DNA of 58,055 nucleotides from the NCBI GenBank assembly GCA_003140595.1, contig PLKG01000138.1:1-58055 (forward strand). The letters run 5' to 3'. The DNA is from Acidimicrobiaceae bacterium. GTDB lineage: Bacteria; Actinomycetota; Acidimicrobiia; Acidimicrobiales; Bog-793. Position numbers and translations under genes: made by a program. Positions 15,121 through 45,387 of this stretch are shown here, piece by piece. Position 1 is the first letter of the stretch, and each line of letters begins with the position of its first letter. A model generated the notes under the pieces. That model worked only from the letters and a program-made list of their open reading frames with translations. It was not told the origin of the DNA and made no database searches.

Positions 15121-15744
15121 TCAGCTCTTGTCCTCGATCTCCCAGGCGTGATCGAGGACATGCCAGGCGATTCGGCGGGCCGCATAGCGCGGCGGCCAGC
15201 CATTGGCCACCGGTGAGCTTCCGTCGGACGCTGCGGCGAGAACTGTGGCGATGGCGGACCGGTTCGCGTCCAAGTCTGAGCCGAGGCTGATGCCGAGCTT
15301 GCGGGCGTAGGAGAGTTCCGCCTCAGCGACGTGATCCACGATCCCGTCGCGGTCGCGCCCGCCGCCTCGAGGACCCCTCCGGAGCTCTGCGGGCGCGTGG
15401 CGAGCGACTCGCTCGAAAACCGCCCAACAGCCGACCACGAGCGACGCGGTCCGCGCAGCCTCGGCATCCTCAAGCGGCTCGCGCTCGGCTGTCGCGATGA
15501 CTGCCGGAGCACCCACGTCGGTGGTCACATTGCCCGGCGCCCTCTCGACGACGTCGAATTCGGCATCTTCGGATGTGAGGAAGAGGCCTGCACCAGTGAC
15601 CACTTGGGCGTATCGCCCGGCGTAACCGGCCAGGATCTCCAGCGCCTGGGGCTCGGTACGGCCTGAACGACACCAGCCCGGCCAGTCCAGAGCCGAGGCG
15701 AACACGCGTCGCTCACCGGTCTCGATACAAACGCGCGTCGTCAC
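15121..15744 (-). CDS. Conserved hypothetical protein, DinB-like C-terminus
   Basis: A 207-residue soluble protein. The N-terminal 60 residues (CIETGERRVFASALDWPGWCRSGRTEPQAL) look like a HicB-type fold. The C-terminal half (IVDHVAEAELSYARKLG, then PRYAARRIAWHVLDHAWEIED) has the helical pattern with spaced histidines seen in DinB/mycothiol-dependent maleylpyruvate isomerase-like bundles. I recall similar architectures in other actinobacteria but know no function. The GTG start at 15744 has only a weak upstream site. It is monocistronic. Confidence 0.65.
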   Translation of the reverse strand: MTTRVCIETGERRVFASALDWPGWCRSGRTEPQALEILAGYAGRYAQVVTGAGLFLTSEDAEFDVVERAPGNVTTDVGAPAVIATAEREPLEDAEAARTASLVVGCWAVFERVARHAPAELRRGPRGGGRDRDGIVDHVAEAELSYARKLGISLGSDLDANRSAIATVLAAASDGSSPVANGWPPRYAARRIAWHVLDHAWEIEDKS

Positions 15745-21215: not shown

Positions 21216-22141
21216 CTCGACGCCCTTCTGCGCACGAGGCTGTAAAGGACCATGGTGATCGTCAGGACGATCAGCATGCCGAGACCGATGGCATAGCCGA
21301 TGTTCTCTTCCCCGGAAATGACGTTGCCGTTGAGTACCTCTCCGATCTGGATTGGCGCCAGAGTTACCGTCCCGGCCGTCAGTGTGTCAGCCGTGGCGTA
21401 GGCAGCGAAAGCGCTGCCGAACAGAAGCAACATTCCCCCGAGCACCGAGGGGAGAAGGACAGGAATGCCCACCGTGCGCCAGTAACGAAAGCTCGATGCT
21501 CCCAGGTTCTCCGCCGCCTCCCGCCATGCCGGACGAAGCCCGCCGAGCGCCGGGGTGATGACGAGCACCATCAGCGGGATCTGGAAGTACAGGTAGACGA
21601 ACGCGACGCCGTAGAAGGAGTAGAGGTTGAAACCGTGGTTCCACGGATTGAGGTGGGCGACGCTCAACCATGCCGTCAGCACCCCGGTCGATCCGAGCGT
21701 CGCTATGAACATGAAGGTCAGGTTGATGCCACCGAAGTTGGCGAGCACACCCGAGGCGGTCGCGACGAGGCGACGCAGCACGCCGCTGCGGGAAGTCTCG
21801 ATCGCGTAGGCGAGGAACACACCGAGTATCCCCGGCACGACAGAAGTGATCGCCGCGAGCAGGATGCTGTTCAGGAACCCGAGGCGGTAGGTGCCATGCA
21901 TGACGGTGTGCACGTTGGCAAGCGTGAGCTTGCCTGTGTCGCTCCTGAAGGCCTCTTCGATGACGGCCAGCGTCGGGATGCCAAGGCCGAGGACCGTGTA
22001 AATGACAAAAGGCGCCATCGCGAGTGCAGGCCGGACAGCACGACGCAGGCCCTTATTGCGGGCCTGCGTCGTAACGGCATGGCCTCCGGCCTCGGGCACT
22101 GAGCTGCCCGGGCCAGAGGCCAACGCTTCAGTGACGGTCAC
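21203..22141 (-). CDS. ABC importer permease, PotB-like
   Basis: A 312-residue inner membrane permease with six helices and an EAA-type loop (WREAAENLGASSFRYWRTVGIPVLLP). The first 35 residues are a hydrophilic cytoplasmic extension. The GTG start at 22141 has GAGG five bases upstream. It is the first of two permeases in the operon, 21 bases after the binding protein gene. Confidence 0.88.
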   Translation of the reverse strand: MTVTEALASGPGSSVPEAGGHAVTTQARNKGLRRAVRPALAMAPFVIYTVLGLGIPTLAVIEEAFRSDTGKLTLANVHTVMHGTYRLGFLNSILLAAITSVVPGILGVFLAYAIETSRSGVLRRLVATASGVLANFGGINLTFMFIATLGSTGVLTAWLSVAHLNPWNHGFNLYSFYGVAFVYLYFQIPLMVLVITPALGGLRPAWREAAENLGASSFRYWRTVGIPVLLPSVLGGMLLLFGSAFAAYATADTLTAGTVTLAPIQIGEVLNGNVISGEENIGYAIGLGMLIVLTITMVLYSLVRRRASRWLR

Positions 22142-34768: not shown

Positions 34769-35779
34769 TCAGTGCGTGTTCATGAGCGCGCGAAGTGACT
34801 GGCGAAGCGAGCCGAGGCTGGCTATGACGGCCGAGGGCTCATAGCCGCAGTGCGCCATGCAGTTCTCACACCGGGGATCCTTCCCTCTTCCATAGGCGTT
34901 CCAGTCGGTGGTTTCCACCAATTCTTGGTAGGTGGTGGCATATCCGTCCGCCATGAGGTAGCACGGTCGCTGCCAGCCGAAGACCGAATAGCTGGGGACG
35001 CCCCAGGCCGTGCACTGGAAGTCCACCTTGCCCTCGAGAAAGTCGAGGAAGAGCGGGGAGTGGTTGAGGCGCCACTTCTTCCTCTGCTTGTCACCGAAAG
35101 CCTTCCTGAATAGCTCGCGGGTCTGCTCGACCCCGAGGAAGTGCTCCTGATCCGGCGCCTTCTCATAGGCGTAGGCGGGCGAGATCATCATCGCGTCCAC
35201 GCCGAGGTCGTCATTCAGGAAGTTGAGGACGTCGCGAACCGTCTTCGGCGAATCGGTGTTGAAAAAGGTCGAGTTCGTCGTCACGCGAAAGCCCTTCGCC
35301 TTGGCTTCACGAATCGCCGCCACTGCGGTGTCGAAGACACCGGCCCTGTCGACCGCGGCGTCGTGGCGCTCGCGGGTGCCGTCCAAGTGGACGACCCAGG
35401 AGAAGTAGTGGGACGGGCTGAATCGGTCGAGGCGCCGGCTCAGGAGCACCGCATTGGTACAGAGGTAGACGTAGACCTTTCGACGCACGAGCTCGCGGAC
35501 CATGCGCTCGATGTCCGGGTGGAGCAGTGGCTCGCCACCGGCGATCGACACCATAGGTGTGCCGCTCTCGGCTACGGCACCCAACACGTCCTCCACCGAC
35601 AGTCGTTGGCGCAGGACCTCGGTCGGGTGCTGGATCTTCCCGCAGCCCGGACATGCCAGGTTGCAGGCGAAGAGCGGCTCGATCTCGACGATGAAGGGGT
35701 AGTACTTGGTCTTCTTCAGGCGGTGCCGAACGAGATGGGCACCGATACGGACGTTCTGACGGAGAGGAATCGGCATCAT
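34769..35779 (-). CDS. hpnH: Adenosyl hopene transferase (radical SAM)
   Basis: Couples the 5'-deoxyadenosyl radical to hopene to give adenosylhopane, the first step of the extended hopanoid side chain. The N-terminal radical SAM motif CNLACPGC binds the [4Fe-4S] cluster, followed by SIAGGEPLLHPDI and VVHLDGTRERHD. The C-terminal region has the family's CTAWGVPSYSVFGWQRPCYL and the cysteine cluster CENCMAHCGYEPSA. The 336 residues match the family length. The ATG overlaps the stop of the hpnG-ispH gene by 4 bases. A second ATG follows at once. Confidence 0.95.
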   Translation of the reverse strand: MMPIPLRQNVRIGAHLVRHRLKKTKYYPFIVEIEPLFACNLACPGCGKIQHPTEVLRQRLSVEDVLGAVAESGTPMVSIAGGEPLLHPDIERMVRELVRRKVYVYLCTNAVLLSRRLDRFSPSHYFSWVVHLDGTRERHDAAVDRAGVFDTAVAAIREAKAKGFRVTTNSTFFNTDSPKTVRDVLNFLNDDLGVDAMMISPAYAYEKAPDQEHFLGVEQTRELFRKAFGDKQRKKWRLNHSPLFLDFLEGKVDFQCTAWGVPSYSVFGWQRPCYLMADGYATTYQELVETTDWNAYGRGKDPRCENCMAHCGYEPSAVIASLGSLRQSLRALMNTH

Positions 35780-37260
35780 CGCACCTGAGTCGGGAGGGAA
35801 AAACGGACGGTTTCTTCTGCGGTCCTCTCCTCACTCAGGCTCACGGGCCCGAGCAGACGGAGAGTGTCGAGCACTTCTTCGACAAGGAGATCGGGGGCCG
35901 AAGCGCCGGCGGTGAGCCCCAGGGTTGTGACGCCAGCGAGCCAGCCAAGCTCCAGCTGCGAGACGTCCTCGATGAGCTCCGCGCGGCAGCCCTCCCGCTG
36001 GGCGACCTCCACGAGGCGGGCGGTGTTGGACGAGTTCGCCGAGCCCACCACAAGCATCAGGTCGCATCGATGGGCGATCTGGCGGACAGCGTCCTGGCGG
36101 TTCTGGGTGGCATAGCAGATGTCGTCCGCCGGGGGCGCGGTGATCTCGGGGAACCGCTCACGCAGTTCCGCGACTATCTCGGCCGTCTCGTCTGTGGCGA
36201 GCGTCGTCTGTGTCAGGTACGCGACCGGGCGCCTCGGCTCGAGCGCGAGCTCCAGCCGGGCGACGTCTTCCGCGCGTTCCACGACGTGGAAACGGTCCGG
36301 TGCCTCACCGAAGGTCCCGATGACCTCCTCGTGGTCGGCATGGCCGATCAGGACGAGGTTGTAATCCTGGCTCGCGTAGCGACGCGCCTCGGTGTGCACC
36401 TTGGCCACGAGCGGGCAGGTCGCGTCGATGACCTTCAGATCGTTGCGATCGGCGGCCTGGCGGCGAACGGCCGGGGAGACACCGTGCGCGGCGAGCACAA
36501 CGACCGCGCCGTGTGGCACCTCGTCGATCTCCTCGACGAAGACCGCGCCCTTGGACTCGAGGTCGCGGACGACGTGCAGGTTGTGGACGATCTGGCGGCG
36601 GACGTACACGGGCGCCCCGTTGAGCAAGATCGCCCGCTCGACGATCTCGATCGCACGATCCACCCCGGCGCAGAACGACCGGGGGGCGGCCAACAACACC
36701 TCGTGCTCACCACAAGCGCGTGCCCAGCGTTCGAGGGGCCGGCGGACCGCCAGCAAGGACCCGAGCGCGCGGGCACCACCGAGCACCGGCCCGCGCTCGC
36801 TTGTGTCGGATATAGAGCGGACGACCGCCAGCGGGTTGTTGGGCAGATATCCCATGACCCAGGCCGACTCCATGTCGACTGCTACAGCGCCCGAGGCGGC
36901 GAGCGCGTCGCGTTCACGGGCGCGCACATAGCGCGGCGAGGACACGAGCGGTCCTGTGTGGACACCGAGGCCGGCACGGCGGAATTCGGCGGCCAGGAAC
37001 GAGACCCCGGGGAGGTTGAGCGACGCCGTCGACTCTGTGTTGCGCAGCTCGCTGGCAATGACAAGGTCCCCCGGGTGCAGCTCGGGCGAAAGTCCGCCCG
37101 CCACGCCCACAAGCGCTACGGCCGTCCTCTCATCGAGATTCGCCGCAAGCTCGGCGCCCGCACGCCGGGCCCGATCGCGACCGGCGCCGATGATGACATC
37201 GGCGCCGCCTACTGCGAAGGCTTCGACCCGCAGTGCGGTGAGGACCTTGAGATCAGCCGT
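35776..37260 (-). CDS. hpnG-ispH: HpnG-IspH fusion: adenosylhopane nucleosidase plus HMBPP reductase
   Basis: Two enzymes in one chain. The N-terminal part is HpnG (MTA/SAH nucleosidase family), which removes adenine from adenosylhopane: GVAGGLSPELHPGDLVIASE and AVDMESAWVMG. The C-terminal part is IspH, the [4Fe-4S] enzyme making IPP and DMAPP: PRSFCAGVDRAIEIVERAI, AAHGVSPAVRR, DATCPLVAKVH and ICYATQNRQDAV contain the three cluster cysteines. The ORF track begins at 37110 (GTG), which would remove the conserved LKVLTALRVEAFAVGGADVI start; in frame these residues extend to about 37260, but no ATG, GTG or TTG is available. An ACG at 37260 is the first candidate. Overlaps shc and hpnH. Confidence 0.88.
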   Translation of the reverse strand, partial: TADLKVLTALRVEAFAVGGADVIIGAGRDRARRAGAELAANLDERTAVALVGVAGGLSPELHPGDLVIASELRNTESTASLNLPGVSFLAAEFRRAGLGVHTGPLVSSPRYVRARERDALAASGAVAVDMESAWVMGYLPNNPLAVVRSISDTSERGPVLGGARALGSLLAVRRPLERWARACGEHEVLLAAPRSFCAGVDRAIEIVERAILLNGAPVYVRRQIVHNLHVVRDLESKGAVFVEEIDEVPHGAVVVLAAHGVSPAVRRQAADRNDLKVIDATCPLVAKVHTEARRYASQDYNLVLIGHADHEEVIGTFGEAPDRFHVVERAEDVARLELALEPRRPVAYLTQTTLATDETAEIVAELRERFPEITAPPADDICYATQNRQDAVRQIAHRCDLMLVVGSANSSNTARLVEVAQREGCRAELIEDVSQLELGWLAGVTTLGLTAGASAPDLLVEEVLDTLRLLGPVSLSEERTAEETVRFSLPTQVR

Positions 37261-39172
37261 GGGCCTCTCCGTTCACGAAACGCCCCAGGGCCGTGACCGG
37301 GAACACAAGACGGTAAAGGTGGTAGTTGATGTAGAAGTCGCCGGGAAAACCGGTCCCCGTGAAGAAAGGCTCGTCCCACGAGCCGTCCTCGCGCTGGGTG
37401 GCGATGAGGTACGCCACACCGTTGTGAGTAGCTTCGGAGCGCTCACCTGCGGCGAGCAGCGCCAGTAGGGCCCAAGCCGTCTGGGACGCCGTGGACGGCC
37501 CGCAGCCCCGCTGCGAGTAGTCCCGATATGAGCGCAGGTCCTCGCCCCAGCCGCCGTCGGAATTCTGGTGGCCTTCCAGCCAGGAAACGGCCTGGCGCAC
37601 AGCAGGGTCATCGATCTCGAGCCCTGCGGCAATGAGCGCCGGGACCACGGCTCCTGTGCCGTACACGTGGTTCGCGCCCCAACGCCCGAACCAGGAGCCG
37701 TCCTCCTCCTGCGAGCGCAGCAGCCACTGAACGCCGCGATCGACGGCATCCTCGGAGCGCCCGAGCTTGGCCAGCATCTCGACGACGTGTGCGGTCACGT
37801 CCGCGCTCGGAGGGTCGATCAGCTCACCGAAGTCACAAAAGGGGAGCTCCCGGCACAAAGTTCGCGTGTTGTCGACGTCGAAGGCCCCCCAGCCCCCGTC
37901 CCTGCACTGCATGCCCTCGATCCAGATGACCGCGCGATCCACGGCGGCACCTGCCGGCTCATCGGTCCGCCCGAGCGCGATCACGACTTCCGCCGAGTCG
38001 TCGATATCCGGGTAGTAGTCGTTGGCGAACTCGAAAGCCCAACCGGCCGGCCGAAGATCCGGGCGGCGGACGGACCAGTCGCCCTTGACCGAGATCTCCT
38101 CTGCAAGCAGATAGCGGGCCGCGGACCGAAGCACCGGGTCGCCCGGCGCGAACCCGCCGTCGGCAAGCGCCGTGACCGCGAGCGCAGTGTCCCAAACCGG
38201 GGACTGGCAGGCTTCGATGCGCCTGCCGGCGTCGTCTTCGATCGTGAAGCCGTCGAGACCCTCGATCCCCGCCCTCATCACCGGGTGCTCGAGCGCGTAG
38301 CCCTGCAGGCTCAGGGCGATCAACGAGTAGACCCAGGGCGGCTGGATTCCACCCCAGGAACCGTCCGCTTCCTGGCGCCGCACTATCCAGCGCTCAGCCC
38401 GGCTGAGCGCCGCCCGACGCACGAACTTGACCTGGTGACGCTCGTAGGCCTTGAGGACGCGGTCCAGCGCCTGGAACCGGCCCGCCCACGAGCTGAGCGG
38501 TTCGGGCGCAGCCGCGGCGAGGCCGCTTCGGAGCTCGTCGATGCCGAATCCGATGGTGTGAGCCGGCCGGTGCGCGCTCACCACCGTGAGGGCGACCACG
38601 GTCTGGCGCGCCCAGCAGCCGAAGTCGTAGATGTTGAGCGGGACGAAACTCGGCAGGAAGATCAGCTCCGGCGGCAACGTCGGCAACTCGTCCCAGGACC
38701 ACAAGTCGAACAGCGCTAACCAGATCCGGGTGAAGACCCGAGTGCGCTCCACGCCACCGCAGCTGTGGATGAACCGCGCCGCGCTTCGCATGTGCGCAGC
38801 ATCCACCGGGTCACCGGCCAGCCGGAGGGCGACATAGGCCTCGACGGTGGTCGAGAGGTCGGGAGGGCCTCCGTGGAAGTTCGCCCACGTCCCATCCTCA
38901 CGCTGGCGCGACCTGATCCAGCGCGCCGACGAAGCAGTCTGCTCGGCGGTGCGGATGCCCAGGAACTCGCGCAGCAGAAGATCCTCCGCGTCGATGGTGA
39001 CGTTGGTCTCGAGCTCGCCCTTCCACCAGCCCTGCGGATGCTGGAGCGCGACAAGGGCATCTACGGCTCGCCCGAGGCACCCCCGGGCCGCATCCTCCGT
39101 TTGCCAAGCCCGCGGCGGCGAGCCTGCGCCAGCCTCGGAACCTGCCGCCTGAGGACGGGAGAGCACGTTCAT
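37253..39172 (-). CDS. shc: Squalene-hopene cyclase
   Basis: A monotopic membrane enzyme that cyclises squalene to hopene. The catalytic DxDD motif is present as YPDIDDSAEV, and several QW repeats stabilise the barrel (DGSWGGIQPPWVYS, DGGWGAFDVDNTR, DGSWFGRWGANHVYGTG, DGGWGEDLRSY). The N-terminal region (ALVALQHPQGWWKGELETN) is typical. The 639 residues match the usual length. Its ATG overlaps the polyprenyl synthase stop (ATGA). It is the sixth-last gene of the operon and the diagnostic enzyme of the cluster. Confidence 0.96.
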   Translation of the reverse strand: MNVLSRPQAAGSEAGAGSPPRAWQTEDAARGCLGRAVDALVALQHPQGWWKGELETNVTIDAEDLLLREFLGIRTAEQTASSARWIRSRQREDGTWANFHGGPPDLSTTVEAYVALRLAGDPVDAAHMRSAARFIHSCGGVERTRVFTRIWLALFDLWSWDELPTLPPELIFLPSFVPLNIYDFGCWARQTVVALTVVSAHRPAHTIGFGIDELRSGLAAAAPEPLSSWAGRFQALDRVLKAYERHQVKFVRRAALSRAERWIVRRQEADGSWGGIQPPWVYSLIALSLQGYALEHPVMRAGIEGLDGFTIEDDAGRRIEACQSPVWDTALAVTALADGGFAPGDPVLRSAARYLLAEEISVKGDWSVRRPDLRPAGWAFEFANDYYPDIDDSAEVVIALGRTDEPAGAAVDRAVIWIEGMQCRDGGWGAFDVDNTRTLCRELPFCDFGELIDPPSADVTAHVVEMLAKLGRSEDAVDRGVQWLLRSQEEDGSWFGRWGANHVYGTGAVVPALIAAGLEIDDPAVRQAVSWLEGHQNSDGGWGEDLRSYRDYSQRGCGPSTASQTAWALLALLAAGERSEATHNGVAYLIATQREDGSWDEPFFTGTGFPGDFYINYHLYRLVFPVTALGRFVNGEAHG

Positions 39173-40179
39173 CGGTCCCGTTCGGTCACGAACCGGGCGA
39201 TCGCAGCCAGCTCCGTACGGGGTCCGATTGCGAGAGGCACCCGCCCGAGGGACTCAAGGGCGGCTTGAAGCTGCACCTCTCCGATCGCCAGCGTCTCCTG
39301 GCGCGCGCCGCACTGCTCCAAGGCCAGCGTCGCCTTGGCGACCTCGGCCTCGCTGAGCTCACGCTCGTGCAGGCATCCGAGCCCTGCTGGCAGGTCGGTG
39401 CCGCGGGCAAGCGCTATCGCGACCGGCAGCGACTTCTTGTGCTGGCGCAGGTCGTTGCCGACCGGCTTGCCGGTGACGCTCGGCTCGCCCCAGATACCAA
39501 GCACGTCGTCGACGGCCTGGAAGGCGATCCCGAGGTGGCGGCCGAAGTCCGCCAGCGCGTCAACGGTCGGCGCCGGTGCGCCGGCGAGGAGTGCGCCCAT
39601 CGAGGCAGCACACGACAGCAGAGCGCCCGTCTTGCCGGCTTCCATGTGAAGGCACTCCTCCACCGACAGCGAATCCAGGAGCTCAGAGGCCATGTCCTCG
39701 GCCTGCCCCGCGATCATCGCCTGAGTCGCCTCGGCGAGCCGCGCGGCAGCCCTCACCCGCTCGGCGGTCGGCTCCTCCAGCAGAATCTGGAACGCGAGCG
39801 TGACGAGCGCATCGCCGGCGATGATGGCATGGCCGACACCGTGCTCGGCCCAAAGAGTCGGGCGGTGCCTCCGTTCGAGGTCGCCGTCGATGATGTCGTC
39901 GTGGACGAGCGAGAAATTGTGGACCATCTCGATGGCGACGGCACCGACCACTCCCGCACCGGCGTCGGCGCCGACCGCAGCCGCCGAGACGAGCGTGATA
40001 CCCGCGCGCACGAACTTTCCTCCACCGGCAAGATGCTCACGCACCGCAGGCCTCAAGGCCGGGCAGAGGCGGAGCACGGCCGCCTCCATAGCCGGCGTCA
40101 CCACCGATCTCGCCCGCGCCAGTGACTCGGCTGCAAGCAGCGCGCTGTCGCCTCTCGCCGGCGATGAGATCGCCGTCAT
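39169..40179 (-). CDS. Polyprenyl diphosphate synthase of the hopanoid cluster
   Basis: A 336-residue trans-isoprenyl diphosphate synthase. Both aspartate-rich Mg2+ motifs are present: DDIID in the first (LVHDDIIDGDLERRHRPT) and DDVLG in the second (QAVDDVLGIWGEPS), with GKPVGNDLRQHKKSLPVA after it. The first GGGKFVRAG motif has Ala where Pro is usual. It probably makes farnesyl diphosphate for HpnC/HpnD, although GGPP synthesis cannot be excluded. The true start is the ATG at 40179, overlapping the hpnE stop, with AGGGGCCGGGAC just upstream. The track start adds 44 shadow residues. Confidence 0.9.
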   Translation of the reverse strand: MTAISSPARGDSALLAAESLARARSVVTPAMEAAVLRLCPALRPAVREHLAGGGKFVRAGITLVSAAAVGADAGAGVVGAVAIEMVHNFSLVHDDIIDGDLERRHRPTLWAEHGVGHAIIAGDALVTLAFQILLEEPTAERVRAAARLAEATQAMIAGQAEDMASELLDSLSVEECLHMEAGKTGALLSCAASMGALLAGAPAPTVDALADFGRHLGIAFQAVDDVLGIWGEPSVTGKPVGNDLRQHKKSLPVAIALARGTDLPAGLGCLHERELSEAEVAKATLALEQCGARQETLAIGEVQLQAALESLGRVPLAIGPRTELAAIARFVTERDR

Positions 40180-41546
40180 GTCCCGGCCCCTTCCAGCTGT
40201 CGTCGGTCCCCCAAGCCTGTGCCCGCAAGGAGGGCCACTGCTTGCGAAGCAGCCTGACGGCCGCTGCGGACCGCGCCCTCCATCGTCGCCGGCCACCCGG
40301 TGTCGCACCACGCGCCAGCGAGAAACAAGCCCGGCACCTCGGTCGTCGTCGGAGGGCGGAACGCCCTGGTGCCCGGGGCCGCCCGGAACGTCGCGGCCTT
40401 CTCGCGGGTGACGACCGCGTCGACGAGGCGCGCCTGACCCGCAGCAGGAAACAGCGCGCGCAACGCCTCCAAGAACATTCTCACGAGCTCAGCCGAGCCC
40501 GTTGAGATGTAGCTGTCCGCAGCCGAGAGCGAGATGGCCAGACACTGGCCCGACTTGGCTCCGCTCGCGACCGTGCGGTCGAAGACGAATTGGACCGGCG
40601 AGTCGACACATGCCGCGAACGGCAGGTCCGTCACCTTCCGGTCGAGGACCAGATGGACATTCACGATGGGAGAGATACCGAGACGCTCCGCGTCGGCTCC
40701 GGCGGTCGATCCGACTTGGGATGCGAGGCTCGACGACACGCGCAGCGGTGTGGCGAGGATCACCGCGTCGACGACCACGCTTCTCGCAGCCGCGCTAACT
40801 GTGAATGCACCGAGGGGCGAGCGGCCGATGGAGACGACCGGACCGCCCAGCACGGTCTCGACTCCCGCAGACTCCAACGCGCGTGCCGCGATGGCACCGT
40901 GAAGCTCGCCCAGCGGGACCCGTGACCACCCGATGTCACCGGCGTCAGATCGATCTAGGAGACCGACGCGGAAGACCTTCGTAGCCAGAGCGAGGGATGC
41001 TTCGCCGGCCGCGACATTGAGCGTCGGCAATGCGATCAGGTTCCAAAGTCGGTCGATAGCCCGCGCGCCCTGGCCCCGCGCTGCGAGCCAGTCGCCGAAG
41101 GAGATGCCGTCGAGTGAGGCGTCGTCGGGATCGAGCCGGCGAAGCGTCATCGCAGGACGCAGCAGGCGCGCCCGCTCGCCGAGCGAGAGATGGCGGTACC
41201 TCGCGAGCGACCGGGCCATGTGCAGCGGGGCGGGCAAGGCCGACCTCTTGATCGACGAGCGCGAACGATCCGGCGCGAGCACGGGCACGTCGAGCCGGTC
41301 CTGGAGGAACACCTGCCCCGTTGCCCCGATCCGGTCGACGAAATCCCGATAGGCGGTACAACAGCGGAGGAACACGTGCTGACCGTTGTCGAAACTGAGC
41401 CCGTTGTGGCGAATCGAGGCCGTGAGACCACCGAGGACCGGGCGCCGCTCGAAGATCACGACCTCCGCACCGGCATCCGCGGCCTCAAGTGCTGCGGCCA
41501 TCCCGGCCAGGCCGCCACCGACAACAGCGATGATGGGCGCGCTCAT
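40176..41546 (-). CDS. hpnE: Hydroxysqualene dehydroxylase
   Basis: FAD-dependent amine oxidase-like enzyme that reduces hydroxysqualene to squalene, the last step of the HpnCDE route. The N-terminal dinucleotide fold is clear (VVGGGLAGMAAALEAADAGAEVVIFERR), followed by GGLTAS, and the C-terminal FAD motif is GLFLAGAWCDTGWPATMEGAVRSG. The 456 residues match the family. ATG overlaps the hpnD stop by 4 bases. Confidence 0.93.
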   Translation of the reverse strand: MSAPIIAVVGGGLAGMAAALEAADAGAEVVIFERRPVLGGLTASIRHNGLSFDNGQHVFLRCCTAYRDFVDRIGATGQVFLQDRLDVPVLAPDRSRSSIKRSALPAPLHMARSLARYRHLSLGERARLLRPAMTLRRLDPDDASLDGISFGDWLAARGQGARAIDRLWNLIALPTLNVAAGEASLALATKVFRVGLLDRSDAGDIGWSRVPLGELHGAIAARALESAGVETVLGGPVVSIGRSPLGAFTVSAAARSVVVDAVILATPLRVSSSLASQVGSTAGADAERLGISPIVNVHLVLDRKVTDLPFAACVDSPVQFVFDRTVASGAKSGQCLAISLSAADSYISTGSAELVRMFLEALRALFPAAGQARLVDAVVTREKAATFRAAPGTRAFRPPTTTEVPGLFLAGAWCDTGWPATMEGAVRSGRQAASQAVALLAGTGLGDRRQLEGAGT

Positions 41547-42382
41547 GGCCGCGCCCCGGCGAGGCTGCGGGCTGCGACCAGTGCCTTCTCCCAGGTGGGC
41601 AAGGACATGCGGCCCCGGGTGACAGCGATCGGCTCACCCTTGATCCGGACCAGCAAGCGCCTGTAGATCCCGGCCATGGCTCCGACACAGGCCCGGCTCC
41701 GGCTGTCGAGCAACGTCAGGAGCTGCAGCCCCTCGGCAAACCACTGGTCCGCACGACCGCATTCGAGCGCGACGAGCCTCGCCACGTCCGCTGCCGGGCC
41801 CTTGAGGTCTGCGGCGCAGCCGACCGACTCGGCGTCGACGCTCGGCAGGTACACGCGCCCGGAAGAGCGGTCCTCGACGACGTCGCGGAGGATGTTCGTG
41901 AGCTGGAGCGCGACGCCAAGCGAGTCTGCGAGAGAGACCGCCCTGTCGGGGTCGTTCGACCCGAACACCGCGAGCGAGAGCCGGCCCACCGAGCCTGCCA
42001 CCTTGCGGCAGTAGCCGACAAGATCGTCGATCGTCTCGTAGGAGGTACCGAGGACATCCATTTCGCAACCGTCGATGATCTCGCCGAAGCACGACATCGG
42101 CAGCCCGTAACGGCGACCTGCGTCGGCTACCGCCACCAGCACCGGGTCCGCCGATTGCGCGTCGATCGCGTCGATGCTCTTTCGGACCGCCTGCAACCCA
42201 CTGAGCTTCTCGCCCGGGGCTGCCTGTCCGTCGCCGATGTCGTCTATGCGCCTTGCAAGTGCATAGACGGCAGACAGTGCCCGGCGTTCGGGCTTACGGA
42301 GCAACCTGATGCCATATGCGAAGTTCTTCGCCTCATGGCGCGTCACCGACTCGCAGAAGTCGTAGGCGAACTCGGTGTTCAC
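41543..42382 (-). CDS. hpnD: Presqualene diphosphate synthase
   Basis: A 279-residue head-to-head prenyl synthase that condenses two farnesyl diphosphates to presqualene diphosphate. The first aspartate motif is RRIDDIGDG and the second is RDVVEDRSSGRVYLP, both conserved in squalene/phytoene synthases. The GTG start overlaps the hpnC stop (GTGA). Confidence 0.92.
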   Translation of the reverse strand: MNTEFAYDFCESVTRHEAKNFAYGIRLLRKPERRALSAVYALARRIDDIGDGQAAPGEKLSGLQAVRKSIDAIDAQSADPVLVAVADAGRRYGLPMSCFGEIIDGCEMDVLGTSYETIDDLVGYCRKVAGSVGRLSLAVFGSNDPDRAVSLADSLGVALQLTNILRDVVEDRSSGRVYLPSVDAESVGCAADLKGPAADVARLVALECGRADQWFAEGLQLLTLLDSRSRACVGAMAGIYRRLLVRIKGEPIAVTRGRMSLPTWEKALVAARSLAGARP

Positions 42383-43260
42383 GATGCGCCTCGCCTCGCG
42401 CTCGCGACCACAAAGCCGTAGACGGCTCGCCTCGCGAAATCGAGCTTATGGGGGCCGCAGTGGGACTTGAGCACGTCGCCACCGGCCCGCTCGATGGAGT
42501 CGAGGGCGGCCATCCCCCCTACAGCAAAGCCCACGACGGCCGCCCGGGGACCGAGCCGCAACGACGCTGCGAGCGGCGCGCCCGCGGCGAGCAGAGCGCG
42601 CGCTCGACCCACCTCCATCGCCACGACCCGGCGCAGGGCGGGAGACGCCTCGGTCGCTAGCAGCTCGGCCTCGGTGCACGAGAAACGCTCCATGTCATCA
42701 GCCGGCATGTAGATGCGACCCCGCCGGGCATCCTCTCCAATGTCTTGCAGGTGCTCGACGACCTGCAACCCGATACAGACCTCGTCCGAGAGCGCTATCC
42801 GCTCGGCCGTCGATACGCCGAAGACCGCCAGCACGAGCCGACCCACCGGGGCGGCTGAGAACATGCAGTACTCGACGAGGTCGCCGAAACTGCGATAGCG
42901 CGTTGTGCGCTGGTCCATCCGGTTGGCTTCGATGAGGTTGCGAAACGGGTCCAGATCCAGGTCGAGTTCCCGGATCACGGGCGTGAGCTGCTGGAGGGCA
43001 GGGTGGGTGGCGTTCCCCGAGGCCGCACGATCGAGCTCGGAGTCGAGCCAGTCCAGCAGTGCCAGACGGTCACCCTCTGCCTCGTCGCCGAGGTCGTCGG
43101 CCAGTCGTGCGAATCCGTATATGGCCATCAGCTTCACACGCACGTCGCGCGCCAGCAGATGCGAGGCAACAGGAAAGTTCTCGTTTCGTGCCTTCGCGGC
43201 GAGCAGAGCGGGCGCGTCGAAGTCTCCTCCAATGGAGCGCCCTGACTCAGTTGACACCAT
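42379..43260 (-). CDS. hpnC: Hydroxysqualene synthase
   Basis: A 293-residue homologue of HpnD that converts presqualene diphosphate to hydroxysqualene. The aspartate motifs are LADDLGDEAEGDR and LQDIGEDARRGRIYMP. The gene-specific segment ENFPVASHLLARDVR near the N-terminus separates HpnC from HpnD. It is the first gene of the hopanoid operon. AAGGAG lies six bases before the ATG. The promoter and inverted repeat are just upstream. Confidence 0.92.
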   Translation of the reverse strand: MVSTESGRSIGGDFDAPALLAAKARNENFPVASHLLARDVRVKLMAIYGFARLADDLGDEAEGDRLALLDWLDSELDRAASGNATHPALQQLTPVIRELDLDLDPFRNLIEANRMDQRTTRYRSFGDLVEYCMFSAAPVGRLVLAVFGVSTAERIALSDEVCIGLQVVEHLQDIGEDARRGRIYMPADDMERFSCTEAELLATEASPALRRVVAMEVGRARALLAAGAPLAASLRLGPRAAVVGFAVGGMAALDSIERAGGDVLKSHCGPHKLDFARRAVYGFVVASARRGAS

Positions 43261-43305
43261 CGGCTACTCCTTCGCGTAGTGCCGATGACTACCAGTTCCA
43301 CCTTT

Positions 43306-43333
43306 GTTATACGTGCAAGGACGCCTGCGTCAA
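43306..43333 (-). promoter_or_regulatory. Promoter of the hopanoid operon
   Basis: On the minus strand TTGACG is followed after 16 bases by TATAAC, a near-consensus vegetative promoter. Transcription would begin about 40 bases before the hpnC ATG. The -35 overlaps an inverted repeat. Confidence 0.65.
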
Positions 43334-43345
43334 GGGACGCAGGCG
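43322..43345. promoter_or_regulatory. Inverted repeat, probable operator for the MerR-TetR regulator
   Basis: CGCCTGCGTC and GACGCAGGCG form perfect 10-bp arms separated by 4 bases. The left arm covers the -35 element of the hopanoid promoter, so a bound dimer would block RNA polymerase. The regulator gene lies about 100 bases away on the same strand. Confidence 0.65.
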
Positions 43346-43449
43346 CGTCAGTTGGCCCTCAAGGCATGCCCACCAGAGGCCGGAGAGGAGAAATCCTGGT
43401 CGTGACCTGCGGGTTCCTAGCGTCCCGGACTCAGGTGCCGGGAGAAGAA

Positions 43450-44376
43450 TCAAGAAGACGAAGTTTGCGAGGAAGTGGTCGACCCGAGCGTCGGCCTCAA
43501 CAGCCCCACGAGGGCCGCGTCGACGACCCGCCGGGCCGCCGTCCTGGCGGACTTACCTCTCGTGCGTAGCCTGGGCACGACACGACTGGCGAGGCCGGCG
43601 GTGATGACACCGACGACGCCTATGAGATTCGGTTGGTGCCGGAGCTCTCCGGTCGCCACCTCGAGCAGCAGCGGGGCCATGGGAGCAAGCAAGAGCTTCA
43701 GCTTCTCGATCGCCTGGGGCTCGCTCATGGGCGCCGGGAGCTCGTCGAGCTGCTCTCCGACGGCCTCGACTGTGGAACGGGCGGCGGCGAGGAAGATCGC
43801 CTCTTTCGAGTCGAAGTAGCGATAGAAGGTCCCCTTGGCTACATCAGCCGCGTTGCAGATATCCGCGACATTGACTCCCGCGTAGCCGTGCCGGGCGAAC
43901 GCCTCTCGGGCGGCCACGACAAGCCGGGCGGAGACGACCGCAGGACCGGACCGTTCCAGGTACGCGTCGATGACCTCGTCCCAGGTGTCTGGGCTGAACT
44001 CGCTCTCACGGTTGAAAGCGAGCAGCTCGGGCAACAAATCGCGGATCGTCTCGAGCGGCATGTTCCGTCGCTCACGGAGCAGGCGGATGACATTGAGCAC
44101 CTCGACATGTCGCTCGTCATAGAGGAACCGATTCGAGGCGAGCTCGGTGGCTTCGGGCAGAAGTCCTAGGTGACGGTAGTGGTGGATGGTGGGCACAGGA
44201 GTGCCCGACTTCTCGGCAAGCACCGAGATCGTAAAACCGGCCGGCGCTGCAACAAGGGGAGTCTCCGCGCGAAGCGACGACGCCGGAGGCTCGTGGCTCC
44301 GTAGCGTTCCTGCCTGACTCCAGCCGCTGCCTTCCACCGGCCCTCTTCTATCACTCCATCGCCCGCTTGCTGCCAA
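43450..44376 (-). CDS. MerR-TetR fusion transcriptional regulator
   Basis: A 308-residue protein with two DNA-binding domains in tandem. Residues about 48-120 are a MerR winged helix (FTISVLAEKSGTPVPTIHHYRHLGLLP, then NRFLYDERHVEVLNVIRLLRER). Residues about 157-210 are a TetR helix-turn-helix (AAREAFARHGYAGVNVADICNAADVAKGTFYRYFDSKEAIFLAA), and the rest is a TetR-type helical ligand domain. The MerR dimerisation coiled coil is short or missing. The TTG start has AGGA six bases upstream; a GTG at 44337 is the alternative. It lies upstream of hpnC on the same strand and probably controls the hopanoid operon. Confidence 0.85.
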   Translation of the reverse strand: MAASGRWSDRRGPVEGSGWSQAGTLRSHEPPASSLRAETPLVAAPAGFTISVLAEKSGTPVPTIHHYRHLGLLPEATELASNRFLYDERHVEVLNVIRLLRERRNMPLETIRDLLPELLAFNRESEFSPDTWDEVIDAYLERSGPAVVSARLVVAAREAFARHGYAGVNVADICNAADVAKGTFYRYFDSKEAIFLAAARSTVEAVGEQLDELPAPMSEPQAIEKLKLLLAPMAPLLLEVATGELRHQPNLIGVVGVITAGLASRVVPRLRTRGKSARTAARRVVDAALVGLLRPTLGSTTSSQTSSS

Positions 44377-44463: not shown

Positions 44464-45387
44464 CTAATCGGAGACGGCTTCGGGACGACCGAAAAGATAG
44501 CCCTGACCGGCCTGAACGCCGACTCCCCTGAGAAGGTTGAGCTCCTCCTCGGTCTCGATGCCTTCGGCGAGGCTCATCGCGCCCAAACGATCCGCGAGCG
44601 CCTTCAGGGCGGCGGCCATCGCCTCTTTCATCGGGTCCGACTCGATCCCGCGCGTGACGTCGATGTCGATCTTGATTATGTCGGCATGAACATCGAACAG
44701 GCTGTTAAAACTGACCGACCCCGACCCGGTGTCGTCCAGGGCGATCCGCACACCTGTAGCACGAAGCGCGCCTACGGCTTCGCTCACTTCGTCGAAGTCT
44801 CCGGCGGCGGCATTCTCGGTGATCTCCAGAACCACACGCTTCGGATCAACCTCGCCGAGAACATCCCGGAGCTCTTCGGACCCGGCCGTCGTCGGGGAAA
44901 CGTTGAGAGAGATGAACGCTTCGTGTGGCAGACGTTCCAGGTGTGCGAGGGCCGTACGGATCGCTGTCATTTCGATCTCGAGCAACAGCCCGACCTCGGC
45001 GGCCTCCGCGAACCATGTACGTGGCGAGACGGCCGAGTCCCCGGGGAAACGGGCGAGTGCCTCGTAGCCGATCACCTTGGTCGTAGCCAGATCGACGATG
45101 GGCTGGAACACGACTCGAATCGAGCCGTCCGATGGGAGGTCCTCGACGCGGCGACGGACTTCGGTCAACCGCTCGTCCTCTGGCGATAAGTCGACTTGCT
45201 CGGACACGACACTTTCGGGGGACTGCTCGGCAACAACGTCCTCGACAAGTCCGGGGCCGTCGACTGGCTGCTCGTCCGCTGGCGGAGAGTCGACCTGCTC
45301 AAACACGACACTTTCGGGGGACTGCTCGGCAGGATCTGACGCACGCGGCTTGGCCGCAGGCTTGACGGCCTCGCGCGAACGGCTCAC
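44464..45387 (-). CDS. EAL-domain cyclic di-GMP phosphodiesterase with a repeated acidic tail
   Basis: A 307-residue cytoplasmic protein. Residues about 85-305 form an EAL domain with the catalytic set intact: GYEALARF, SLNVSP (Asn), VLEITEN (Glu), ALDDTGSG (Asp-Asp), IIKIDID (Lys) and SLAEGIETEEEL (Glu). It should hydrolyse c-di-GMP to pGpG. The first 80 residues are disordered and acidic and contain two copies of AEQSPESVV spaced 33 residues apart. No sensory domain is present. It sits downstream of the MerR-TetR gene on the same strand, 76 bases apart, with no clear functional link. Confidence 0.85.
   Translation of the reverse strand: MSRSREAVKPAAKPRASDPAEQSPESVVFEQVDSPPADEQPVDGPGLVEDVVAEQSPESVVSEQVDLSPEDERLTEVRRRVEDLPSDGSIRVVFQPIVDLATTKVIGYEALARFPGDSAVSPRTWFAEAAEVGLLLEIEMTAIRTALAHLERLPHEAFISLNVSPTTAGSEELRDVLGEVDPKRVVLEITENAAAGDFDEVSEAVGALRATGVRIALDDTGSGSVSFNSLFDVHADIIKIDIDVTRGIESDPMKEAMAAALKALADRLGAMSLAEGIETEEELNLLRGVGVQAGQGYLFGRPEAVSD
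45190..45331. repeat. Internal direct repeat in the EAL gene
   Basis: Two 43-bp copies (45190-45232 and 45289-45331) differ at three positions and start 99 bp apart, that is 33 codons, so the frame is kept. They encode the AEQSPESVV repeats in the disordered N-terminus. The arrangement suggests a recent in-frame tandem duplication. Confidence 0.7.

Follow-up and report, generated by a model that had tools for sequence, protein, structure and literature searches.

The 58,055-nucleotide stretch of Acidimicrobiaceae bacterium contig PLKG01000138.1 analysed here (the window) encodes a protein, REG, that carries a MerR winged helix and a TetR helix-turn-helix on one chain. REG is probably a dedicated repressor of the hopanoid operon that follows it, with its TetR heads on an inner dyad and its MerR heads on the outer half-sites of a nested palindrome at the operon promoter. 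This reading is drawn from sequence, namely from the fusion itself, its conserved linkage to the operon, the nested dyad, the near-uniqueness of that dyad in each genome, and its absence where the regulator is absent. The initial annotation had the right protein and the right pathway and the wrong site, and the finding gains strength from the correction. The control of hopanoid levels in bacteria is little known, and no actinobacterial hopanoid regulator was found in the literature searched, which is mainly on proteobacteria; here there are a named regulator, a mapped candidate site and one target operon.

Domain structure of REG

43450-44376, minus strand: REG, MerR-TetR fusion regulator, 308 amino acids, TTG start (Pfam, AlphaFold2, orthologues and alignments)

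The presence of MerR and TetR on one chain, proposed on the first reading of this DNA, was confirmed. Both domains score above their Pfam cut-offs, MerR_1 at amino acids 48-117 (54.1 bits, E 1.7e-14; cut-off 21.6) and TetR_N at amino acids 153-198 (66.8 bits, E 1.4e-18; cut-off 24), and both modules are present in the AlphaFold2 model. The span first assigned to the regulator, 43322-44376, covers the gene but merges it with an inverted repeat, the gene itself ending at 43450. The model, a monomer predicted from a shallow alignment of 10 natural sequences, has a mean pLDDT of 82 and contains a MerR winged helix (amino acids 48-121), a linker helix, a TetR helix-turn-helix (145-187) and a short helical C-terminal domain. 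Two short helices, 108-121 and 129-143, lie between the winged helix and the TetR module. The TetR-type helical C-terminal region extends over amino acids 145-297, of which 191-297 is the predicted ligand and dimer part; this last domain is all-helical (191-211, 219-245, 254-269 and 275-297), with pLDDT mostly above 90. Foldseek matches of the model are TetR-family chains, including GusR, FadR and KstR, and are weak (TMt 0.3-0.6). The antiparallel coiled-coil dimerisation helix and the effector domain of MerR proteins are absent from the AlphaFold2 model. Residues G, Y, G, P, Y and H of the MerR wing and helix are invariant in the alignment of 24 orthologues.

A split or broken regulator in relatives G002 and G003 was ruled out, the breaks being due to runs of N in the assemblies. 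An EAL-domain gene (44464-45387, minus strand) is located just upstream of REG, a placement seen only in the window's genus.

Conserved linkage of REG to the hopanoid operon

42379-43260, minus strand: hpnC, squalene synthase HpnC, first gene of the operon (TIGR03464, above cut-off)
41543-42382, minus strand: hpnD-like presqualene diphosphate synthase (TIGR03465, 259.6 bits, slightly below the cut-off of 278.6)
40176-41546, minus strand: hpnE, hydroxysqualene dehydroxylase (TIGR03467, 401 bits, above cut-off)
39169-40311, minus strand: polyprenyl diphosphate synthase (PF00348)
37253-39172, minus strand: squalene-hopene cyclase (TIGR01507, 746 bits, above cut-off)
35776-37110, minus strand: HpnG-like fragment fused to IspH (TIGR03468 at amino acids 2-107, TIGR00216 at amino acids 138-418)

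The hopanoid operon was recognised by the joint presence in the window of hpnC, hpnD, hpnE and the squalene-hopene cyclase gene (NCBIfam, with HpnD slightly below its cut-off). The best model for the polyprenyl synthase is that of a family-2 encapsulin cargo polyprenyl transferase (322 bits, below the cut-off of 450). The gene at 35776-37110 is apparently an HpnG-IspH fusion, with an N-terminal stretch that resembles the hopanoid-associated phosphorylase HpnG (65 bits, below cut-off) and a TIGR00216 match of 314 bits.

As a single chain, REG occurs through most of the family to which the window belongs and in a scatter of other families in the order, with identities of 36-83%. Relatives with names are Acidimicrobiaceae and other actinobacterial metagenome-assembled genomes, and several isolate names suggest peat (palsa) soil. 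The next same-strand gene after REG is dxs or hpnC in 49 of 50 orthologue loci from Acidimicrobiales-type genomes and one further family (some hpnC genes being caught through their relative hpnD). In family f106, true REG orthologues adjoining the hopanoid operon were identified by profile search. Wherever the contig of a fetched locus extends far enough, the hopanoid operon lies downstream of REG on the same strand. In about half of the relatives (for example L092, L095, L096 and L098) dxs is inserted as the first gene, giving the order REG-dxs-hpnC-hpnD-hpnE-GGPPS-SHC, which places precursor supply on the same promoter as the hopanoid genes. The sole exception among the 50 loci, L112, has an unrelated gene after REG and no dyad. 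The tie between the fusion and the hopanoid operon is thus stronger than had been stated, as the linkage is kept across many families.

The inverted repeat at the hpnC promoter

43328-43333, minus strand: -35 element TTGACG of the hpnC promoter, at the same position in same-genus and more distant relatives
43306-43311, minus strand: -10 element TATAAC of the hpnC promoter, 16-bp spacer, conserved in relatives
43322-43345, no strand: inverted repeat with 10-bp arms and a 4-nt loop, not conserved

The repeat at 43322-43345 had been taken for the operator. It does exist, its arms (43322-43331 and 43336-43345) matching at 10 of 10 positions around a 4-nt loop, and it does overlap the -35 element. 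However, the dyad is missing from two members of the window's genus, G001 and G003, and only a partial copy occurs in G002; beside orthologous fusions only the TTGACG half, that is the -35 element, is conserved. The initial annotation had named lack of conservation beside orthologous fusions as a refutation, and by this measure the repeat is very unlikely to be the operator. The perfect 10-bp arms, within a spacer of 190 bases and over a -35 element, would suit an operator and might also suggest a terminator of the REG gene, but no T run follows the stem, and comparable repeats occur elsewhere in the window; the probability of either role is very small. The window contains six distinct perfect inverted repeats whose arms are 10 bp or longer, against 0-5 counts per window in first-order Markov shuffles, and the repeat at the promoter is not exceptional. 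Further long perfect inverted repeats are located at 22041-22071 and 15129-15160; the former (CGACGCAGGCCC...GGGCCTGCGTCG) has a GACGCAGGC core in common with the repeat at the promoter.

A conserved nested dyad behind REG

43273-43313, minus strand: proposed composite operator, a diverged nested dyad (half-site model)

The idea of an operator on the hopanoid promoter survives with another element in place of the repeat, a nested dyad just downstream that is conserved across families. Side-by-side comparison of the spacers downstream of REG revealed a conserved inner dyad, TGACY-N4-RGTCA. Of 43 spacers, 23 have a best match of 10/10 and a further 10 have one of 9/10 (33 of 43 at 9-10/10), whereas shuffled spacers contain no perfect inner dyad and 2.8% reach 9/10. 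Perfect dyads number 26 in the 544,301 bases of 41 loci, and 23 of these immediately follow REG.

The inner dyad is flanked, about 7 bp further out, by mirror-symmetric outer half-sites with the consensus YTKYDCR, read outward, whose midpoints are about 17 bp from that of the dyad. Mirror identity of the outer arms at shift 0 is 0.495 (positions 6-11) and 0.433 (positions 12-18), against mostly 0.2-0.33 at other shifts, and permuting left and right partners between genomes lowers the overall identity from 0.401 to 0.317 +/- 0.019, so that the two arms of one site are alike beyond the consensus; these values are inflated by sequence relatedness and are not p-values. The outer half-sites vary by lineage and are shifted by about 1 base in some (L083 and L107), while L111, the extreme case, has a 21-bp perfect half. 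Wherever a promoter is recognised, 13-15 or 24-32 bp separate the dyad centre from the -10 centre upstream of it, which puts the dyad beyond the -10, at the start site or on the first bases to be transcribed. Judged by its conservation, the nested dyad looks like the operator of REG.

Two other roles were considered for the element or for the protein next to it. The dyad could be a hairpin in the RNA leader, since a transcript that begins far enough upstream of the site would be able to fold into a 5-bp stem closed by 4 nt; but in the window's clade, as in several more, the left arm runs into the -10 and would stay untranscribed, the 4-nt loop is not conserved, and the six bases separating each inner arm from its outer arm do not pair, and such a hairpin is extremely unlikely. 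The MerR DNA-binding domain, for its part, would fit an activator that works in MerR fashion by remodelling the hpnC promoter, or a protein that is activator or repressor by ligand state. Classical MerR activation requires an overlong promoter spacer of 19-20 bp with the dyad inside, but here the spacer to the TATAAC-type -10 is only 15-17 bp, with the dyad located beyond the -10, and an activator of either kind is very unlikely.

The window's own copy of the proposed operator consists of an outer CGTATAAC (43306-43313, overlapping the -10), an inner GGAAC-TGGT-AGTCA (43286-43299) and an outer CTACGCG (43273-43279). A half-site model trained on other families, without the window's clade, was scored on both strands of the whole 58 kb, and its top score, 16.2 bits, falls at 43292 reading down, at the hpnC promoter (inner AGTCA, outer CTACGCG). 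The promoter-side half, at -10.9, is degenerate and contains one base more than in G001, and the site is diverged throughout the window's own clade. Because one half is degenerate and has a 1-base insertion, binding in the window could be weaker or differently spaced.

Specificity of the dyad

A 40-bp nested pattern, allowing at most 2 mismatches, matches in 29 of 98 genomes, once in each, and 23 of these sites are the REG spacer; the pattern was derived from the same spacer family, so that these matches are expected and the informative part is the near absence elsewhere. The other 6 sites all have 2 mismatches, and a reversed-pattern control gave 3 sites. The window's own genus falls short of the pattern. 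With one site per genome, REG therefore seems to be single-target and to have no site before its own gene. A wider regulon was considered, and no sign of it was seen in the 98 genomes, the pattern matching at essentially one place in a genome. Among orthologues found later by profile search and unused in the motif definition, 5 of 6 have a perfect dyad and the sixth has 9/10. No perfect dyad is found in the hpnC operons of three genomes that have no REG (G068, G083 and G084); G068 is without both REG and dyad, and G683, of the same genus, has both.

Proposed mode of action

REG would dimerise through its TetR-type C-terminal domain, and the two TetR helix-turn-helix heads would read the inner dyad TGACY-N4-RGTCA. 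The two MerR winged-helix heads of the same chains would read the outer half-sites, one dimer covering about 40 bp. Established geometry is consistent with this assignment. The inner half-sites, about 10 bp apart, have the right spacing for a TetR dimer; the outer half-sites, about 34 bp apart, are too far for a MerR dimer alone, and would be reachable if the MerR heads hang from the TetR dimer. The nested geometry supports joint reading of the DNA by both predicted heads. Bound over the -10 and transcription start or just downstream, REG would block initiation or promoter clearance of the unit hpnC(dxs)-hpnD-hpnE-GGPPS-SHC; repression by blocking is suggested by the position of the dyad over the start site or first transcribed bases. 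Release of REG may depend on a small molecule, perhaps an isoprenoid or acyl lipid, that occupies its TetR domain.

An ordinary TetR dimer might instead repress from the inner dyad, with a MerR domain that reads no specific DNA and acts as an additional sensor or as a contact for another protein; the outer symmetry would then arise from the promoter sequence (the -10) and shared ancestry. Most of the information does sit in the inner dyad, the left outer arm falls on the -10 in the window's clade, and the outer sequences differ by lineage. However, the right outer arm is outside the promoter and yet mirrors the left in register, the outer arms persist where the dyad is clear of the -10, FAD-linked paralogues (see below) also have them, and the MerR wing and helix residues are invariant; the simpler dimer is accordingly judged unlikely. 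If REG does read its site with both heads, fusing two families provides a new route to operator specificity, in which a site must satisfy both, and this requirement, if true, would fit about one site per genome.

REG shares with TetR/AcrR one-component repressors (TetR, FadR and KstR) a TetR_N domain above cut-off, a helical C-terminal domain and a short promoter palindrome near the regulator gene, but has an extra N-terminal MerR head, a short C-terminal domain and a candidate operator extended by outer half-sites. It has in common with the MerR family (CueR/CadR/BmrR type) a MerR_1 winged helix above the Pfam cut-off, but a TetR module takes the place of the dimerisation helix and sensor, and the site is outside a 19-20 bp spacer. 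Most TetR-family genes are divergent from a neighbouring target (PMC3511530), whereas the REG gene is co-directional with and upstream of its proposed target. Closest among known systems are Mce3R, which carries two TetR heads on one chain, and BusR, which acts as a ruler on its bipartite site. Mce3R of Mycobacterium tuberculosis contains two TetR modules forming an intramolecular pair, with two nonidentical helix-turn-helices and a 25-bp nonpalindromic site (PMC11667970). Like REG, whose heads are predicted to bind DNA, Mce3R has two DNA-reading heads on one chain and is associated with lipid-related genes; REG differs in joining two different families and in the nested palindrome of its site. 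In BusR, of the GntR family, a tetramer of one head type spans two motifs 22 bp apart (PMC8517857), and a long bipartite operator with fixed spacing is likewise predicted for REG. No publication on MerR-TetR fusions was found in the open-access literature, which is weak evidence of absence because only open-access papers were covered, and no solved structure with MerR and TetR domains in one chain was found.

Other MerR-TetR fusions

More distant MerR-TetR fusions were identified by profile search in other families of the phylum (L191-L244), with up to six per genome; where examined, they are not beside hpn genes. One paralogous group precedes an FAD oxidoreductase of phytoene-desaturase type (PF01593). 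The promoters of this group (TTTACA/TATAAT) possess a related inner dyad, NNACY-N4-RGTCA, with outer AGTAT/ACTATC arms, and arm symmetry occurs at a half-base shift (0.61 versus 0.12-0.38), in a nested layout like that behind REG. It is quite plausible that Actinomycetota contain a general class of one-component regulators with two unrelated DNA-binding families per chain that read concentric palindromes at once, as a four-headed clamp of about 40 bp, its members placed directly before their own targets and the hopanoid member being dedicated and single-site. A generic nested dyad behind every MerR-TetR fusion was also considered and rejected, as it is not seen in most paralogues, only in the FAD-oxidoreductase-linked group. 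The recognition helices differ from group to group of these fusions.
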